This document shows, one piece after another, positions 15,492 to 22,752 of a DNA stretch of 32,003 nucleotides (position 1 is the stretch's first letter; each line of letters starts with the position of its first letter). Where the stretch lies: assembly GCA_007131405.1 (NCBI GenBank), contig SLQR01000110.1, positions 1 to 32,003 on the forward strand. The letters run 5' to 3'. A program made the translations under genes and the position numbers. The notes below the pieces were generated by a model, which ran no database searches, was not told the DNA's origin, and saw only the letters and a list, made by a program, of their open reading frames with translations. This DNA comes from Candidatus Izemoplasma sp. Its GTDB lineage: Bacteria; Bacillota_I; Bacilli_A; Izemoplasmatales; Izemoplasmataceae.

Positions 15492-16142
15492 ATGAAGCGC
15501 ATTACGATTTTAACGGGTCATTACGGTTCGGGAAAATCAGAAATTGCCATCAACTTAGCCATCCAAGATGAGCTTAACGCTTTAATCGACTTAGACATCA
15601 TTAATCCTTATTTTCGTTCACGCAGTGCACGCAAATTATTGGAAGCAAATGGCATTGAGTTGATTGAATCAACAATTGAAAATTCAGCAGGAAGCGATCT
15701 CCCTTTCATAAGCGCGAAAGGGAGTCGTCCTTTTGTTAATAGTGATCTGCGTGCGGTTTATGATCTTGGGGGCACAAAACATGGTGCGAAAGTAATGATG
15801 CAATTTCGCGATTTTATCAAAAACCGTGACGAAATAGACTTTTTGGTTGTTGTGAATATTTACCGACCAGAAACAGATCAAGCAAAAAAGATTATCCAAA
15901 TGGTTGAAGAACTAGAAGCAACCAGTCAGATTCGAGTGACTGGCTTTATCAACAACTCGAACTTAATGGAATACACCGATGAAAGTATGATTGAAGAAGG
16001 CGAACGCATTCTTAAAGAAGCAGCCGGCACGTTAAACCTTCCAATAGTCTATACCTTCATTGAAGAACATGTGAAAACAACCAAACGTTACGCAGGCGAC
16101 AATCGTGTTTTAATCCGTTACCTCGCAAAACAATGGTTATAG
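15492..16142 (+). CDS. P-loop ATPase of unknown role in the 2-oxoacid oxidoreductase operon
   Basis: A 216-aa soluble nucleotide-binding protein. The Walker A motif GHYGSGKS spans residues 9-16, and the next strand LIDLDIINPYFRSR resembles the switch region of the MinD/ParA/NifH-like ATPase group; NIYRPETDQ and GFINNSNL are further conserved-looking segments. I do not know a demonstrated function. It lies between leucine dehydrogenase and the ferredoxin-like subunit; from memory similar ATPases occur beside 2-oxoacid:ferredoxin oxidoreductase genes in other anaerobes. A role in iron-sulfur cluster or cofactor loading of the enzyme is plausible but unproven. The ATG directly follows the upstream stop (TAA-ATG) with no ribosome binding site, so translation probably depends on reinitiation. 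Confidence 0.8.
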   Translation: MKRITILTGHYGSGKSEIAINLAIQDELNALIDLDIINPYFRSRSARKLLEANGIELIESTIENSAGSDLPFISAKGSRPFVNSDLRAVYDLGGTKHGAKVMMQFRDFIKNRDEIDFLVVVNIYRPETDQAKKIIQMVEELEATSQIRVTGFINNSNLMEYTDESMIEEGERILKEAAGTLNLPIVYTFIEEHVKTTKRYAGDNRVLIRYLAKQWL

Positions 16143-16154
16143 GAGGAATTTTTT

Positions 16155-16379
16155 ATGGCTAAAGGTCGAATTATTATTGAGCAGGACTTATGCAAAGGAT
16201 GCGAATTATGTGTATATCAATGTCCTGTGCATATTTTAGAATTGGATACGTCTACAACCAACGCCAAAGGGTATACGCCGTTGATTGTCAACGATCCGGA
16301 GAAATGCATTGCATGCAGTTTTTGTGCGATGATTTGTCCTGATTCGGTGATTACTGTAGAACGTTTCGTAAAGGAGTGA
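16155..16379 (+). CDS. vorD: 2-oxoacid:ferredoxin oxidoreductase delta (ferredoxin-like) subunit
   Basis: A 74-aa protein with two [4Fe-4S] motifs: C13, C16, C19, C23 (CKGCELCVYQC) and C51, C54, C57, C61 (CIACSFCAMIC). It carries electrons out of the oxidoreductase to free ferredoxin. AGGAGG precedes the ATG. It is followed after 7 nt by the alpha subunit. The vor rather than kor or por name rests on leucine dehydrogenase and butyrate kinase being in the same operon. Confidence 0.9.
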   Translation: MAKGRIIIEQDLCKGCELCVYQCPVHILELDTSTTNAKGYTPLIVNDPEKCIACSFCAMICPDSVITVERFVKE

Positions 16380-16386
16380 AATAAAA

Positions 16387-17454
16387 ATGGCTAAAGTATT
16401 AATGAAAGGGAACGAAGCGATGGCGCTTGCAGCAATCAAAGGTGGCTGCGATGCATTTTTCGGGTATCCGATTACGCCGCAAAACGAAATCCCTGAATAT
16501 CTTTCCTATCATATGCAAGAACACGGTCGTGTTTTTGTTCAAGCGGAAAGTGAAGTGGCTGCGATTAACATGGTATACGGAGCAGCAGGGGCTGGAGCAC
16601 GTGTGTTAACGTCCTCATCAAGTCCAGGTATTGCCTTAAAACAAGAAGGGATTAGTTACATAGTTGGAAGTGAACTTCCAGCAGTGATTATCAACGTTAT
16701 GCGTGGGGGACCAGGTCTTGGTGGTATTCAGCCAAGTCAAGGCGACTACAATCAAGTAACACGCGGTGGCGGAAATGGCGATTATCATTTGCTCGCATTT
16801 GCCCCAGAAACGTTACAAGAAACGGTTGATATCGTTAAACAATCATTTGATTTAGCGGATTATTACCGTAACCCGGTTATGATTGCGGTCGATGGATTAA
16901 TCGGTCAGATGATGGAGCCTGTTGACATAGATAAAGAAGTCGAACAAAAAACACTCGAAGAAAAAACATGGGCCTCGGATGGAACAAGTGGAAAACGTGG
17001 CAGAGTTAACAAAATTGTTTCGTTGCACCTCGATCCATACGATCTTGAAAAACACAACTTGAAATTAAAAGCAAAATACGATGAAATGGTCGAAAAAGAA
17101 CAACGTTATGAAATGATTGACACCGACGATGCAGAAATCGTTATTGTTGCGTATGGTTCGATGGCACGTATTGCACGCAGTGCAGTTAAAGAACTACGTA
17201 ACGAAGGTGTTAAAGTTGGAATTATTCGTCCAATTACGATTTGGCCGTTCCCAGAGAAAGCATTTGATGAACTGCCAGAATCTGTGCATACCTTATTAAC
17301 GGTAGAAATGAGCCTTGGTCAAATGTTGCAAGATGTAAAAATTGTGAACCAAGGTCGCTACCAACTTGAATTTTACGGACGTGCCGGTGGCGTTGTGCCT
17401 GAGGCATCGGAAATTATGGACCAAGTTCGTAAACACCTTAAGGGGGCAAAATAA
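16387..17454 (+). CDS. vorB: 2-oxoacid:ferredoxin oxidoreductase alpha subunit
   Basis: A 355-aa subunit holding the pyrimidine-binding and domain II parts of a thiamine-diphosphate enzyme that turns branched-chain 2-oxo acids and CoA into acyl-CoA, CO2 and reduced ferredoxin (EC 1.2.7.7 if the substrate guess is right). GNEAMALAAIKGGC, GYPITPQNE, QAESEVAAINM (the Glu that activates the cofactor) and TSSSSPGIALKQEG are diagnostic. AAGGAG sits upstream of the ATG. The stop overlaps the beta-subunit start by one base in TAATG. 2-oxoglutarate or pyruvate specificity cannot be ruled out from sequence alone. Confidence 0.9.
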   Translation: MAKVLMKGNEAMALAAIKGGCDAFFGYPITPQNEIPEYLSYHMQEHGRVFVQAESEVAAINMVYGAAGAGARVLTSSSSPGIALKQEGISYIVGSELPAVIINVMRGGPGLGGIQPSQGDYNQVTRGGGNGDYHLLAFAPETLQETVDIVKQSFDLADYYRNPVMIAVDGLIGQMMEPVDIDKEVEQKTLEEKTWASDGTSGKRGRVNKIVSLHLDPYDLEKHNLKLKAKYDEMVEKEQRYEMIDTDDAEIVIVAYGSMARIARSAVKELRNEGVKVGIIRPITIWPFPEKAFDELPESVHTLLTVEMSLGQMLQDVKIVNQGRYQLEFYGRAGGVVPEASEIMDQVRKHLKGAK

Positions 17455-18215
17455 TGAAAACACAAACTGTGTATAAACCAACCGGTGGATTAACCGATCG
17501 ACCACTTAGTTATTGCCCTGGTTGTACTCATGGAATCATTCATAAACTCGTAGGCGAAGTTCTAGAAGAAAAAGGGTTACTTGATGAAACGGTCGCTATT
17601 GCAAGTGTTGGATGCAGTGTTATGAGCTATGAATTCTTTAACTGTGACACCCAACAAGCAGCACATGGTCGTGCACCAGCTGTGGCAACAGGGATTAAAC
17701 GTGTTCGCCCAGATGCAACCGTATTCACCTACCAAGGCGATGGAGACTTAGCGTCAATTGGGATGGCTGAAATTGTGCATGCAGCACACCGCGGTGAAAA
17801 CATAACTGTCGTGTTTGTGAACAACGCAATTTACGGAATGACTGGTGGCCAAATGGCGCCGACGACGTTGATTGGTCAAAAAACAACCACGTCACCACGT
17901 GGGCGTGACCAAGGGAACACCGGACTGCCTTTACGTATGTCTGAATTGCTTGCAACGGTACCAGGTTCAACCTATTTAGAACGCGTATCCGTGCATGATC
18001 CAAAACATATTCGTAAAGCAAAAAAAGCGCTTGAAAAAGCCTTTGATGTCCAAGAGAAAAAACAAGGATTTTCAATGATTGAATTTATCTCAACATGCCC
18101 TGTAAACTGGGGGATGACACCGAATGATTCCCTTAACTGGGCGGTGGACAATTTAATTCCTTACTATCCACTTGGTGTGTATAAAGACGCAACTAAGGGG
18201 GATGACAATGCCTAA
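17454..18215 (+). CDS. vorA: 2-oxoacid:ferredoxin oxidoreductase beta (TPP-binding) subunit
   Basis: A 253-aa thiamine-diphosphate-binding subunit. YCPGCTHG carries C21 and C24, which with another cysteine can ligate the proximal cluster. The cofactor motif begins GDGDLASIG and continues to VFVNNAIYGMTGGQ, the Mg/diphosphate-binding loop of the family. It starts one base inside vorB and its last 8 bases overlap vorC, so subunit synthesis is tightly coupled. Confidence 0.92.
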   Translation: MKTQTVYKPTGGLTDRPLSYCPGCTHGIIHKLVGEVLEEKGLLDETVAIASVGCSVMSYEFFNCDTQQAAHGRAPAVATGIKRVRPDATVFTYQGDGDLASIGMAEIVHAAHRGENITVVFVNNAIYGMTGGQMAPTTLIGQKTTTSPRGRDQGNTGLPLRMSELLATVPGSTYLERVSVHDPKHIRKAKKALEKAFDVQEKKQGFSMIEFISTCPVNWGMTPNDSLNWAVDNLIPYYPLGVYKDATKGDDNA

Positions 18216-18756
18216 AACCGAACAAGTCATTATTGCTGGATTTGGAGGGCAAGGGGTTATGCTTATTGGTCAAATTTTATCGTATGTCGCGACCAATGAA
18301 GAACTAAATACGGTTTGGATTCCTTCGTATGGTCCAGAAACACGTGGGGGAACCGCCAATTGTTCAGTTTCAATTTCTGAAGAGATGATTAATTCACCCA
18401 TTGTAACGGCCCCTGACTCAGTGATTGCAATGAATTTGCCATCACTACAAAAATTCGAGCCGAAACTTAAAAAAGATGGAATATTACTCGTAAACAACTC
18501 AGCGGTTAAAGATTATGATTACCGTAAAGACTTACGCGTTATTGAACTCGATGCAAACAAAGAAGCTCTTGAACTTGGGAACTTAAAAGTTGCAAACATG
18601 ATTCTGCTTGGTGCCTACATTGAAGTCACAAAGGTCTTCGAAAAAGATGCCATTACGAACATATTTAAAAAGATTTTTTCTGGCGACAAAGCAAAACTTA
18701 TTGACTTAAATGTTAGAGCCCTCGAACGAGGCATGGAAATCGCCAAACAACATTAA
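18208..18756 (+). CDS. vorC: 2-oxoacid:ferredoxin oxidoreductase gamma subunit
   Basis: A 182-aa domain that binds CoA in this enzyme family. The N-terminal AGFGGQGVMLIGQIL and the PSYGPETRGGTANCSV segment are its signature. The ATG at 18208 follows GGGGG at 6 nt; ATGs at 18202 and 18172 are in frame but respectively abut that site or lie deep in vorA. The order delta-alpha-beta-gamma is the usual one for VOR and KOR type enzymes. Confidence 0.92.
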   Translation: MPKTEQVIIAGFGGQGVMLIGQILSYVATNEELNTVWIPSYGPETRGGTANCSVSISEEMINSPIVTAPDSVIAMNLPSLQKFEPKLKKDGILLVNNSAVKDYDYRKDLRVIELDANKEALELGNLKVANMILLGAYIEVTKVFEKDAITNIFKKIFSGDKAKLIDLNVRALERGMEIAKQH

Positions 18757-18780
18757 CCGCAAACAAAGGAAGTGAACCCT

Positions 18781-19842
18781 ATGAAGATCTTAACGATCAA
18801 CCCAGGTTCGACGAGCACCAAGGTTGCTGTGTTTAATGGGTTAAAACGTATTGCAAAAGCTACCATCAAACATGATGATGGCGAAATGCTGACGTTTGAA
18901 ACACTCGCCGATCAAATTCCTATGCGTCAGACTGTAATCCTTGATTTCTTAAGAGAATACGATTTTCGCTTAAATGAGATTGATGGCTTTATCGGTCGCG
19001 GAGGGCTATTACGCCCGCTAAGCAGTGGCTTATACGAAGTCAATGATGCAATGATTAAGGATTTAAAAAGCAACACCTATGGTACCCACGCCTCAAATCT
19101 CGGTGGTCTTATAGCCCATCAACTGGCAAGTAGCGTAGACAAAAAAGCGTACATTGCCGATCCAGTCGTTGTTGATGAGATGGATAATGTTGCGAAAATG
19201 AGTGGCTTAAATGGCATTGAACGACGCAGTTTATTTCATGCGTTAAACCAAAAAGCTGTTGCTCGTAAATACGCAGAAAAAGTGGATATACCCTATGAAC
19301 ACTTAAACGTCATCGTGGCTCACCTTGGTGGTGGTATCAGTATTGGTTACCATAAACAAGGTCGCGTGGTTGATGTAAACAATGCCCTTGATGGGGATGG
19401 ACCGTTTTCACCAGAACGCACCGGTGGCTTACCAGTCTGTAGTGTGATTGATCTTGCCTACAGCGGCCAGCATACCAAAAAAGAACTGCAAAAACTTATT
19501 CATGGCTATGGTGGAATGTTTAGTTACTTAAACACCAAGGACGCAGAAGAAGTATCTGACATGCTTGCCTCAGGTCGTGTTGAAGCGAGCCGAGTCGTAA
19601 ACGCCATGGTGTATCAAATTGCCAAAGAAATCGGTGGACTTTATGCCGTTTCACGCGGGGCGCTTGATGCCATTATCCTAACCGGTGGCTTAGCGTATAA
19701 TCAAGACCTTATCCAACCACTGATTGAAATGATTGATCACTTAGGTGAAATTGTCATTTATCCAGGAGAAAATGAACTTGAAGCGTTAGCGTTTAATATG
19801 CATGCCTTTTTAAGCGGACGCATCAAACCAAAAGATTATTAA
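18781..19842 (+). CDS. buk: Butyrate kinase (branched-chain fatty acid kinase)
   Basis: A 353-aa acetokinase-family enzyme (EC 2.7.2.7) that converts acyl phosphate and ADP to the fatty acid and ATP. The N-terminal phosphate loop is INPGSTSTKVAVF; VAHLGGGISIGYH and DGDGPFSPERTGGLP contain the substrate and nucleotide-binding residues; a GGLAYNQ adenosine motif lies near the C-terminus. AAAGGAAG precedes the ATG at 18781; a GTG at 18772 is in frame but within that site. In this operon its natural substrates are probably isovaleryl, isobutyryl and 2-methylbutyryl phosphate. The phosphotransbutyrylase usually found beside it is absent here. Confidence 0.93.
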   Translation: MKILTINPGSTSTKVAVFNGLKRIAKATIKHDDGEMLTFETLADQIPMRQTVILDFLREYDFRLNEIDGFIGRGGLLRPLSSGLYEVNDAMIKDLKSNTYGTHASNLGGLIAHQLASSVDKKAYIADPVVVDEMDNVAKMSGLNGIERRSLFHALNQKAVARKYAEKVDIPYEHLNVIVAHLGGGISIGYHKQGRVVDVNNALDGDGPFSPERTGGLPVCSVIDLAYSGQHTKKELQKLIHGYGGMFSYLNTKDAEEVSDMLASGRVEASRVVNAMVYQIAKEIGGLYAVSRGALDAIILTGGLAYNQDLIQPLIEMIDHLGEIVIYPGENELEALAFNMHAFLSGRIKPKDY

Positions 19843-19846
19843 CAAT

Positions 19847-19876
19847 AAAACTGCATTCATCGAATGCAGTTTTTTT
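19847..19876 (+). terminator. Intrinsic terminator after buk
   Basis: AAAACTGCATTC (19847-19858) pairs fully with GAATGCAGTTTT (19862-19873) across a 3-nt loop, followed by more T. It ends the branched-chain amino acid operon. Confidence 0.9.
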
Positions 19877-19932
19877 AGTGTTTAAAGGTTTTTAAGCGAA
19901 AAAAAATGGTATGCTATAAACGAGGTGATTGT

Positions 19933-20607
19933 ATGCGTGTCATGATTATTGAAGACCATATAAAAATAAACAATCTCATTACCCTTTATTGCCAACAAGA
20001 CGGTTTTGATACGGTGTCGTTTTTTTCCGCAGAAGACGCATTAACCTACAGCAAAAACCATGCCGTTGATGTTATTATTACCGATCTTATGCTTAAAGAA
20101 ATGTCAGGTGAAACCCTGATTCAAACCTTGCGTGAAGTCAGCGATGTTTATATTATTGTCGTTTCAGCAAAAACAAGCGATGACGAGCGCATCGATGTGT
20201 TAAAACTTGGCGCCGATGATTACATTACCAAGCCCTTTTCAATTGATGAACTCATGGTGAGACTGCATAATGCATCGAAACGACTCAATCTCACACGTCC
20301 CCTTGAATACACGTTTCACGAAGGCGCGATTCGTTTAAACCCGATTGAAAAACATGTTCGCGTTAATCACACACGCATCAATTTAACACGAAACGAGTTT
20401 GAAACCTTTTTAACCCTTGTTAATCACCCATACCAAACCTTATCACGCAGTCAAATACTTGAACAAAGTAATTTATCAGAAGATGCCTTTGACCGCGTGA
20501 TCGATGTCTACATTAAAAACATTCGTAAGAAACTTGGACCACACAAAAACCTAATTAAAACCATGTATGGTGAAGGGTATCAGTTTGTAGGTGAACGCGA
20601 TGCGTAA
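19933..20607 (+). CDS. OmpR/PhoB-family response regulator
   Basis: A 224-aa DNA-binding response regulator. The receiver domain (about 1-120) has the acidic pair E7-D8, phospho-acceptor D51 in IITDLML, S78 and K100 in YITKPF. The C-terminal winged-helix domain (about 130-220) ends with the typical GEGYQF. GAGGTGAT lies just upstream of the ATG at 19933; an upstream in-frame ATG at 19906 is unlikely because it overlaps probable promoter sequence (TGCTATAAA, 19912-19920). It overlaps the histidine kinase by 8 bases. A copper or metal role is suggested only by the CueP-like gene downstream. Confidence 0.92.
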   Translation: MRVMIIEDHIKINNLITLYCQQDGFDTVSFFSAEDALTYSKNHAVDVIITDLMLKEMSGETLIQTLREVSDVYIIVVSAKTSDDERIDVLKLGADDYITKPFSIDELMVRLHNASKRLNLTRPLEYTFHEGAIRLNPIEKHVRVNHTRINLTRNEFETFLTLVNHPYQTLSRSQILEQSNLSEDAFDRVIDVYIKNIRKKLGPHKNLIKTMYGEGYQFVGERDA

Positions 20608-21838
20608 ACTTGAAACCTTTTTAAGAAAGCGTGTTATTTTAGCGTACACACTTTTTTATACACTTGTATTTATTCTCATTAATATTACCTTTGTGTGGTT
20701 AAATGTACGGTATATTGATGCAACGATTGATGATCAAAATAGCTCGCTTATAGAGATGATGGAGCATTTAATCGAAGAACGGGATGAAGCAACGGCATTG
20801 CTCTTTTTAGAACATTACGGGCATACGCATTCTGTCTATTTACGCTATGAAGGCTTAATATCCCAAGACAGTTATGAAACATACGAAGCACCAACGCAAT
20901 ACGATACGTATACCATTTATGCCCACAACACAACCTACGCCGTGCTCCATATCGATAATGTCCAATCCACGTTAATCCAAACCAATACACGCTTTATCGT
21001 CTCGTTTAATGTCATCTTTTTTGCCGTCTTTTTAACGGGACTCTTTGTGCTTCAACTTTATATTCGCCACCAAACAACCCGCATCATCGATGACATGGGC
21101 CAACTAAAAAAACACATTCAAAACCTTAAGACACGTGAAGCGTATTACTTTGATGATTTTGAAATGATTGACCAGGCTTTTGAGGAAAAAATCACCGCCA
21201 TTGAATCACTAAAAAAAGCCCACACAAAAAAAATCCGCACCCTAACCCATGACATCAAAACGCCTCTCACTATTTTAAAAACGATGCTTGAAGGCCTTGA
21301 ACAAGAGCGTCTATCTCTAAATAGCGAAACCCTTTCAAGCATGCTAGAAGAAATTGATGTGATGAATGATTTAATTCCACGCATCATTGAAACCCCAGAA
21401 CCGAAACTGATTAAAAAACACAATGCAAAAACAATGATCTCAGACTATCTCAATAAAATAACGCCGCTCTTTGAATCACGAAGTATCGCTTTCGACGTGT
21501 CATTAGAAGATGCCCATCTCGACATCGAAGCGGGTGATTTTATCCGTATTCTAGATCATTTACTGATGAATGTTTACCATCATGCAAGTGATACAAAGAC
21601 CGTGCACCTGGATTTGCGAGCTGACCCATTGACGTTCACGTTAAAAGACGAAGGACCAGCCATAAAATCACGCATTATTGAAGCGCTTAATCGTGATTTA
21701 CCTTCAAGTAAATCAAGCAAACAAGGGACGGGAATTGGACTCTTTGTGGTCCGCGATATTGTGTCTGAATATGGTGGAACCCTCACCATTGACACAACTC
21801 AACATCACAACATTATCACCATTACCTTTCCTTCATAA
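20600..21838 (+). CDS. Membrane sensor histidine kinase
   Basis: A 412-aa kinase partner of the preceding regulator. Two membrane segments (about 12-35 and 132-155) enclose an extracytoplasmic sensor of about 95 residues with the His-bearing stretch EHYGHTHS. A short linker leads to the dimerisation/phosphotransfer helix with H217 in RTLTHDIKTPL, then an ATPase domain with DHLLMN, KDEGP and GTGIGLFVVRDIV. AGGTGA at 20589 precedes the ATG at 20600. The stop codon lies inside the first unit of an 11-bp direct repeat that may be the operator of the next genes. Confidence 0.92.
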   Translation: MRKLETFLRKRVILAYTLFYTLVFILINITFVWLNVRYIDATIDDQNSSLIEMMEHLIEERDEATALLFLEHYGHTHSVYLRYEGLISQDSYETYEAPTQYDTYTIYAHNTTYAVLHIDNVQSTLIQTNTRFIVSFNVIFFAVFLTGLFVLQLYIRHQTTRIIDDMGQLKKHIQNLKTREAYYFDDFEMIDQAFEEKITAIESLKKAHTKKIRTLTHDIKTPLTILKTMLEGLEQERLSLNSETLSSMLEEIDVMNDLIPRIIETPEPKLIKKHNAKTMISDYLNKITPLFESRSIAFDVSLEDAHLDIEAGDFIRILDHLLMNVYHHASDTKTVHLDLRADPLTFTLKDEGPAIKSRIIEALNRDLPSSKSSKQGTGIGLFVVRDIVSEYGGTLTIDTTQHHNIITITFPS

Positions 21839-21863
21839 TTCCTTCATAATTTCATCGTATAGT
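21828..21863 (+). promoter_or_regulatory. Tandem 11-bp repeat and -10 box before the SHOCT gene (candidate regulator operator)
   Basis: CCTTCATAATT occurs twice head to tail at 21830-21840 and 21841-21851. The repeated hexamer TTCATA, with 5-bp spacing, fits the Pho-box style TT(A/C/T)A(C/T)A of OmpR-family regulators. A -10-like TATAGT follows at 21858-21863 with no recognisable -35, as expected of an activator-dependent promoter whose -35 region is covered by the repeats. The GAGGTGA site and ATG of the next gene follow. Confidence 0.5.
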
Positions 21864-21882
21864 AGGGTTAAGAGGTGAAATC

Positions 21883-22179
21883 ATGAAAATTATAAATTAT
21901 ATGCTACTCGGTTTAATTATTGCGGTGGCGTTGTTGTTGTTTTTTAATCCGAGCATGCTTGGGTTTGGCCGTTATTCTACTCGACACATGCACGGATTTG
22001 GCATGGCTTGGGTATGGCTTTTAGTTATATTCGGTGTGATGTTTGTGAGTTTTCCACATCCCACACACGATGAAGAAACGATTATTCGATGCCGTTACGC
22101 AAAAGGTGAAATTGATGATCATGAATATAAGCGCATCATTAAAACACTAAAAAAGGAGAATGACCATGAAGAGTATTAA
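21883..22179 (+). CDS. Small SHOCT-domain membrane protein
   Basis: A 98-aa protein with two membrane segments (about 6-21 and 41-57) joined by a His/Met-rich turn, RHMHGFGMAW, and a cytoplasmic C-terminal SHOCT-like motif (about 67-90: YAKGEIDDHEYKRIIKTL). SHOCT is a short helical module found at the ends of many small membrane proteins; its role is usually unknown. The His/Met turn could bind metal. Strong GAGGTGA ribosome site. It overlaps the next gene by 14 bases. Confidence 0.75.
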   Translation: MKIINYMLLGLIIAVALLLFFNPSMLGFGRYSTRHMHGFGMAWVWLLVIFGVMFVSFPHPTHDEETIIRCRYAKGEIDDHEYKRIIKTLKKENDHEEY

Positions 22180-22717
22180 ATTAATCATCGTACTTGCCAT
22201 TTTACTTTCCGTGGGTGTCTTTGCCTATTGGTTGAATAACCCATCCGAAGAACGATACTTACGCCGCTATGATCTTGAAGGCTTAAGCGCAGAAGAAATG
22301 GTTGAGTCTCTTGACCGTGCCACCATCGACCCAAATAAACTTATAGCCGGCATAAGTGCACATACGCTAACACTCTATTTTGAGGATGCCACATTTGCCT
22401 ATGCGATTGATGAAGAATTGTTTTATTTATCGCTAGCACCCTATATTACCTTCACCCATCCTTGTGGGACACACAGTTTAACAACCTGCCAAGGGGAGCT
22501 TGCGAATGAAACGTTCTTTGTACGCATTACCGATCTTGATGGGACGGTTTACTATGAAGGTGATTACACAGCGTATGACAACGGCTTTAAAGGATTTTGG
22601 TTGCCACGACACACCACCGTGGATATTGAGATTGAATACCAAGATTTAAGCGCAACCCAACAACTTACCACCAGTGATGATGCCGATACATGCATGACCA
22701 CATTAGAACTTAAATAA
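22166..22717 (+). CDS. cueP: CueP-family metal-binding protein, membrane anchored
   Basis: A 183-aa protein with an N-terminal hydrophobic signal or anchor (about 4-23) and an extracytoplasmic body. The C-terminal half reads like CueP: HPCGTHSLTTCQGEL, NGFKGFWLPR and DADTCMTTLEL. Cysteines C100, C108 and C176 are spaced 8 and 68 apart, the same spacing as the three functional cysteines (96, 104, 172) I recall for Salmonella CueP, a periplasmic copper-binding protein. Copper binding here is inferred. GGAG lies 7 nt before the ATG at 22166; ATG 22160 is an alternative. Co-transcription with the SHOCT protein is likely; a terminator follows. Confidence 0.8.
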   Translation: MKSIKLIIVLAILLSVGVFAYWLNNPSEERYLRRYDLEGLSAEEMVESLDRATIDPNKLIAGISAHTLTLYFEDATFAYAIDEELFYLSLAPYITFTHPCGTHSLTTCQGELANETFFVRITDLDGTVYYEGDYTAYDNGFKGFWLPRHTTVDIEIEYQDLSATQQLTTSDDADTCMTTLELK

Positions 22718-22721
22718 GGTG

Positions 22722-22752
22722 AAGACGAAGACAGAAAGTCTTTGTCTTTTTT
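22722..22752 (+). terminator. Intrinsic terminator after cueP
   Basis: AAGACGAAGAC (22722-22732) pairs with GTCTTTGTCTT (22738-22748) with one G-U pair and an AGAAA loop, followed by a T run to 22752. Confidence 0.85.

Follow-up and report, generated by a model that had tools for sequence, protein, structure and literature searches.

Salmonella cueP is controlled by CueR and Cpx and contributes to copper resistance in the absence of CueO; its product receives Cu(I) from ScsB and ScsC (PMC13201067). A 2012 survey of gammaproteobacteria recorded CueP in six genera of three families (PMC3548706). Without CopR, Corynebacterium crenatum had 78-98% less cueP and copS mRNA; the paper is inconsistent as to which way copper acts (PMC11124244). 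Here we describe a four-gene unit containing cueP in a 32,003-nucleotide stretch (the window) of Candidatus Izemoplasma DNA, which is contig C48 of the host genome (G000; 1.46 Mb, 118 contigs, 86% complete). Izemoplasma have been described as free-living, wall-less bacteria (PMC8397711). Such cells have no wall or outer membrane, and hence no closed periplasm, which raises the question of how copper is retained outside their cytoplasm. Comparison of the window with its relatives makes it very likely that this unit is the core of a regulon directed against copper, and probably silver too, outside the cytoplasm, with the mode of sensing and regulation proposed below. CueP outside Gram-negatives was known already; new here are the recurrent SHOCT-CueP unit, a three-histidine sensor type, and a regulator box that connects copper genes at separate sites and predicts further regulon members.

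CueP and its recurrent neighborhood

Genes for a response regulator, a sensor kinase, a small SHOCT-like protein and CueP lie on the plus strand at 19933-22717, where the first-pass annotation had placed them, and the unit is flanked on both sides by terminator-like hairpins (Table 1). The last gene encodes a genuine CueP. Its product scored 148.2 bits against PF21172 (curated cut-off 27; E 1.5e-43) and 145.3 bits against the NCBIfam CueP family NF038094 (cut-off 60), and failed the Salmonella-type periplasmic model NF038095 (148.2 bits; cut-off 195). The whole exported part aligned with Salmonella CueP (4gqz; E 1e-30), and a structural model (predicted local distance difference test score, pLDDT, 94.3) matched 4gqz with a template modeling (TM) score of 0.91 by target length and a root-mean-square deviation of 1.6 A. 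The CueP-type cysteine spacing of 8 and 68 that had been read from the sequence was confirmed: it is formed by C100, C108 and C176, is identical in 4gqz, and occurs in 69 of the 94 CueP open reading frames (ORFs) counted. These cysteines, together with H98 and H103, were invariant among 14 aligned CueP proteins.

The protein had also been called membrane-anchored. A hydrophobic N-terminal helix (residues 2-24) is indeed present, and anchoring is likely; it is not certain, as the helix has no lipobox and the protein may instead be cleaved after VFA. Lipobox-like CueP starts were found in three relatives (LAAC in L025, LSGC in L026 and LSAC in L027), which suggests that the means of attaching CueP to the membrane varies within the group. 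In two of these relatives, a small CCCH...CPPC protein, BFD-like by eye, adjoins CueP (L025:2545-2721 and L027:146-322).

We surveyed cueP loci by profile search of genome contigs and retained the best 80 of 588, a sample that favors close relatives. Genes were called mechanically as ORFs and recognized with profiles of 2 to 16 seed sequences, so that seed loci match by construction; taxa were assigned from the given names, with L075 ('bacterium') counted under Tenericutes. These best 80 loci comprised 28 from Tenericutes/Bacillota, 26 from Proteobacteria, 15 from Actinobacteria and 11 from Anaerolineae, and the earlier view of CueP as chiefly Gram-negative, and thus notable in a Gram-positive-like host, had to be abandoned. 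Within 3.5 kb of the 28 Tenericutes/Bacillota genes we found the kinase and regulator in 23 cases, a SHOCT gene in 24, an HMA gene in 16 and a gene for an exported His/acidic protein in 13; CopA or CsoR lay within 6 kb in 14. The corresponding counts for kinase plus regulator, SHOCT, and CopA or CsoR were 8, 9 and 4 at the Anaerolineae loci and 3, 2 and 6 at the actinobacterial loci, with neither HMA nor His/acidic genes in either group. None of these partners was found near cueP at the 26 proteobacterial loci. These counts indicate that CueP occurs without such partners in proteobacteria, but forms part of a module that recurs in Bacillota and Chloroflexota. A chance neighborhood was rejected because the gene set recurs across many loci. 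A survey of Bacillota neighborhoods had been suggested as a check; the neighbors it revealed, HMA chaperones, CopA and CsoR, point to copper.

Two other arrangements were seen. At L069, L079, L087, L089, L095, L104, L110, L111 and L114, CsoR-CueP-CopA and SHOCT-His/acidic are oriented in opposite directions, the latter together with regulator and kinase if the locus is long enough. At the Anaerolineae loci L033, L039, L045, L047, L057, L060, L064, L081 and L098, two tandem SHOCT-like genes lie between the kinase gene and cueP, and the kinases aligned from these loci have a short loop, with a FERHM-type His/Met motif in some.

The small SHOCT-like protein accompanies CueP in both Bacillota and Chloroflexota. 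The window protein matched PF09851 weakly (12.4 bits, cut-off 27; E 0.14), and SHOCT proteins of other cueP loci scored 19.5-27.2 bits. The family alignment preserves the RYAKGEIDDHEYKRIIKTLK end, in which G75, I77 and Y82 are invariant. Recovered through its relatives only, the window protein is probably SHOCT-like, and this is the weakest family assignment of the unit. The HMH turn pointed out by the first-pass annotation proved to be part of a wider feature: His and Met made up 19.0% of the inter-helix loop in 14 family members, versus 5.7% in the larger ORFs of the window. The text of the 2013 SHOCT paper makes no reference to copper and leaves the function open (PMC3581485). Our literature search found no paper naming CueP together with SHOCT or together with Tenericutes.

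A histidine signature in the sensor kinase

We aligned the window kinase with 27 other CueP-linked kinases, which are 22-36% identical to it, taking residues 35-132 as the outside part. N28, H56, H72, Y73 and H75 were invariant in all 28, as were H217, T221, P222, L223 and N324 of the kinase part; within the outside part of about 98 residues, only H56, H72, Y73 and H75 were. Histidine accounted for 4.9% of outside-part residues, and H77 was kept in 22 of the 28 kinases. In the structural model, H56 sits towards the end of the first long helix (residues 2-60), with H72 and H75 one turn apart in the next (63-77). H56, H72, Y73 and H75 are our predicted metal site of the sensor.

The exact EHYxHTH pattern was encoded in seven of 41 genomes (the host and 40 relatives, several of them only 51-90% complete), each time at the cueP locus. 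When one mismatch was allowed, 19 matches were obtained versus seven in a reversed control, and eight lay away from cueP or CopA loci. A search of the sensor part against PDB sequences returned no relative (eight matches, all with E 0.59 or worse). Among the matches listed, a structure search with the kinase model gave kinase cores, which are uninformative on the sensor part.

A predicted regulator box and a proposed split regulon

A predicted regulator-binding site spans the end of the kinase gene and the 44-base gap 5' of the SHOCT gene. It reads TTCATAATTCC TTCATAATTTC ATCG TATAGT, that is, two 11-bp repeats followed by a -10 box at offset 27. The pattern TTCAYANNNNNTTCAYA matched once in the window, versus 0.07 matches expected; a general sigma-70 pattern scan gave no excess (nine observed, 10.3 expected). 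At relatives' cueP loci the same box precedes SHOCT, mostly with a -10-like hexamer at equal offset. Such an arrangement is like that of PhoB-type activation, where the repeat stands in for the -35 box.

We built a matrix from 17 relatives' sites, picked by a pattern that had initially been noted in the window and in a single relative; the sites of the window, C94, G005 and G017 were left out of training. The window site scored 27.2 bits, and no match of at least 11 bits occurred in 249 kb of shuffled sequence. The matrix box was found 5' of SHOCT at 22 of 24 Tenericutes/Bacillota loci with a SHOCT gene, including 13 of 14 outside the training set (L084 being the miss); a 23rd, at L046, lies inside an over-long ORF call. 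None of the four Tenericutes/Bacillota cueP loci without SHOCT had the box, and these four also lack the kinase/regulator pair. In 23 genomes, a strict form of the pattern gave 17 sites, versus two in a reversed control. Twelve of the 17 were associated with cueP loci or with genes for HMA proteins, His-rich proteins or CopA, and two were on C72.

The strict pattern occurred at four places in the host genome: window 21832, C94:7041, C72:946 and C72:1756. The C94 box (22.4 bits; TTCATATTTCC TTCACAATTAC CTTA TATAGT) is followed by a gene for an exported protein of 110 aa that contains His, Met and acidic stretches, and then by an HMA gene. The exported protein scored 26.5 bits against the profile of its cueP-linked counterpart, and the HMA protein scored 82.8 bits against the cueP-linked HMA profile (the genome's two further single HMA proteins reached 34.6 and 28.0 bits). 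Relatives keep this pair, which is not in the window unit, inside the cueP operon. In G005, the cueP locus likewise lacks both genes, and the same split was found at G005:C23, with its own box (18.4 bits). We accordingly rejected the notion that the window unit is incomplete for want of HMA. G017, which has no CueP match, carries a 39-bit box 5' of a gene that is divergent from CopA and encodes an exported peptide of 79 aa with three HHH runs (L142:2071-2310; G017:C84). Both the neighbors of cueP and the copper-type genes preceded by the box elsewhere thus tie the homologues to copper, and not to a different stress, which the first-pass annotation had named as the contrary outcome.

The C72 sites precede a TMEM164-like membrane protein (C72:946; 25.9 bits) and a set comprising Lgt, a DsbD-like protein and a CxxC-containing protein of the AhpC/TSA fold (C72:1756; 13.9 bits). 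The four genes lie in a row at L190:407-3719, with boxes at L190:447 and 1257. The redoxin scored 57.7 bits against AhpC-TSA (cut-off 26) and contains MCQACW; the DsbD-like protein matched DsbD_TM weakly, below the cut-off (17.7 bits, cut-off 27.1; E 0.0023). A search of 25 relatives returned no DsbD-like gene. The idea of a thiol relay is weakened by this restriction to the host genome among 26. The operon is possibly a regulon member, and this is the boldest and least certain part of our proposal.

Table 1. Positions of genes, predicted sites and hairpins in the window
Feature	Position	Strand	Evidence or description
Terminator-like hairpin closing the upstream gene	19847..19873	+	12-pair stem, then T run
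OmpR-type response regulator	19933..20607	+	Pfam Response_reg 1.8e-24, Trans_reg_C 7.8e-18
Sensor histidine kinase, two membrane helices	20600..21838	+	Pfam HATPase_c 7e-12, HisKA 3.6e-7; model mean pLDDT 83.6
Codon of H56 in the sensor part	20765..20767	+	Invariant in outside part, 28 CueP-linked kinases
EHYGHTH motif (E71-H77) of the sensor part	20810..20830	+	H72, Y73, H75 invariant
Predicted regulator-binding site: direct repeat TTCATAATTCC TTCATAATTTC (11-bp pitch), -10 TATAGT at 21858-21863	21832..21863	+	Conserved pattern
SHOCT-like protein of 98 aa: two helices with a His/Met loop (HMHGFGM) between them, then a SHOCT-like end	21883..22179	+	Pfam match below cut-off; relatives' alignment
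CueP with N-terminal membrane helix	22166..22717	+	Pfam PF21172 1.5e-43
CueP metal motif H98-P-C100-G-T-H103 ... C108	22457..22489	+	Invariant, 14 CueP proteins
Third CueP cysteine, C176	22691-22693	+	Invariant, 14 CueP proteins
Terminator hairpin 3' of cueP	about 22721..22749	+	12-pair stem, -15 kcal/mol, z -3.7, 0/200 shuffles as good

The regulator gene has an alternative in-frame start at 19906. Upstream of the unit, 15492-19842 holds, by eye, a 2-oxoacid:ferredoxin oxidoreductase-like set, and also a butyrate/acetate-type kinase (Pfam Acetate_kinase 3.8e-16); these genes fit an anaerobe.

Proposed mechanism, alternatives and known systems

Extracytoplasmic copper or silver sensing and buffering, as proposed from the sequence alone, is well supported by the conserved neighborhood and the shared box, from which we infer the metal, its binding, the direction of signaling and the buffering role. 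The kinase would read copper at the outside histidine site formed by H56, H72 and H75 and phosphorylate the regulator, which, judging from the fixed spacing, would bind the 11-bp direct repeat in place of a -35 box. The regulator would then turn on at least two host units, one encoding the SHOCT-like protein and CueP and the other, on another contig, the exported His/acidic protein and the HMA chaperone; the Lgt/DsbD-like/CxxC-redoxin operon may be a third. The regulon products, membrane-anchored or exported, would hold copper there, CueP by C100, C108 and C176 with H98 and H103 and the SHOCT protein by its His/Met loop. The HMA protein would hand cytoplasmic Cu(I) to a P-type ATPase. Cytoplasmic copper would be handled by a separate CsoR-CopA unit; CopA and CsoR genes lie side by side on contig C104 of the host genome, and a second, His-rich ATPase is encoded on C24.

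A fuller version, which we regard as possible rather than probable, is that Izemoplasma-like, probably wall-less bacteria have an envelope copper regulon under a distinct class of copper sensor kinase, marked by the signature H-x15-HYxH in its outside part. This regulon would comprise membrane-held buffers (the SHOCT-like His/Met protein, CueP and the His/acidic protein), the HMA chaperone and, in the host genome, a thiol-reducing relay of Lgt, the DsbD-like protein and the CxxC redoxin that keeps CueP reduced.

Several observations weigh against a copper regulon. Three of the 17 strict sites lie at other genes, and a 21.2-bit site, nearly equal to that at C94, precedes an unrelated 85-aa membrane protein (G000:C19; L189:1927, minus strand). 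CueP was above the cut-off in 22 of 392 genomes of a phylum-wide sample and in 14 of the 41 compared here; it is absent from the other 27, including two of four same-genus relatives. In G009, the contig ends inside the His/acidic gene, so CueP may lie off the contig. No HMA, CopA or CsoR gene adjoins the window unit. CueP-linked kinases of Anaerolineae and Actinobacteria lack the invariant histidines and EHYxHTH and have short outside loops; the histidine sensor type therefore belongs to the Tenericutes/Bacillota group. Finally, the window regulator and kinase scored far below the cut-offs of the heavy-metal NCBIfam models for CopR/SilR/CztR (TIGR01387; 103.5 bits, cut-off 279.2) and CopS/SilS/CztS (TIGR01386; 45.8 bits, cut-off 292.55), and membership in the known CopRS/CusRS families was rejected. 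Our literature search found no metal experiment on this group of bacteria.

The pair might sense another metal (zinc, cadmium or mercury) or several soft metals, with CueP as a broad sink. Histidine sites can take zinc as well as copper, and several metal pathways employ HMA domains, CsoR-type repressors and P-type ATPases; in Curtobacterium, an island that includes CueP is tied to cadmium too (PMC12889094). We consider this unlikely, given that ATPases above the cut-off of the copper model TIGR01511 are present in 37 of the 41 genomes, the host included, and that the CueP experiments cited here, in C. crenatum (PMC11124244) and Salmonella (PMC13201067), concern copper. There is only a slim chance that CueP is not a buffer and instead loads a cuproenzyme such as Cu,Zn superoxide dismutase, as proposed for SodCII in Salmonella (PMC13201067); no cuproenzyme was recognized beside cueP in the loci examined, the host genome not having been searched for one. 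It is similarly improbable that the repeat at 21832 belongs to another, PhoB-like regulator of the cell. The host genome encodes three OmpR-type regulators, hence two besides that of the window, and sites resembling this one, of the form TTCATAAAATATTCATAA, are present in relatives that lack CueP; however, strict sites were found in nine of 11 genomes with CueP versus one of 12 without, and the box is missing at the four cueP loci that lack the kinase/regulator pair. Least probable of all is a CpxAR-like sensor of general envelope or thiol stress that controls cueP incidentally: Salmonella cueP does answer to Cpx as well as CueR (PMC13201067) and the box also precedes the Lgt/DsbD-like/redoxin operon, but histidines predominate among the invariant sensor residues, and in three genomes the remaining genes linked to the box encode HMA and His-rich proteins.

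Four described systems come nearest to the window unit, and each differs from it. Salmonella CueP (4gqz) shares the fold, the cysteine spacing and the THPCxxHSLxxC motif; it is periplasmic and under CueR and Cpx (PMC13201067), whereas the window protein is led by a membrane helix and has its own two-component pair upstream and a SHOCT-like partner. In C. crenatum, a Gram-positive cueP depends on a response regulator (PMC11124244). The actinobacterial CueP-linked kinases that we aligned, in contrast, have a short outside loop without HYxH, and SHOCT lies near CueP at two of the 15 actinobacterial loci. Synechocystis CopMRS resembles the unit in that a copper-binding protein is encoded with its two-component pair (PMC4335983), but CopM is not CueP, and the paired export system is a resistance-nodulation-division (RND) pump. 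In Salmonella, ScsB, which is DsbD-like, and the thioredoxin-like ScsC form one copper-linked set with CueP, whereas the C72 operon is tied to CueP by the shared predicted box alone and its DsbD match is weak. If the fuller version of our proposal is correct, a thiol relay that keeps CueP reduced would constitute a parallel to Salmonella ScsBC-CueP, assembled from other parts.

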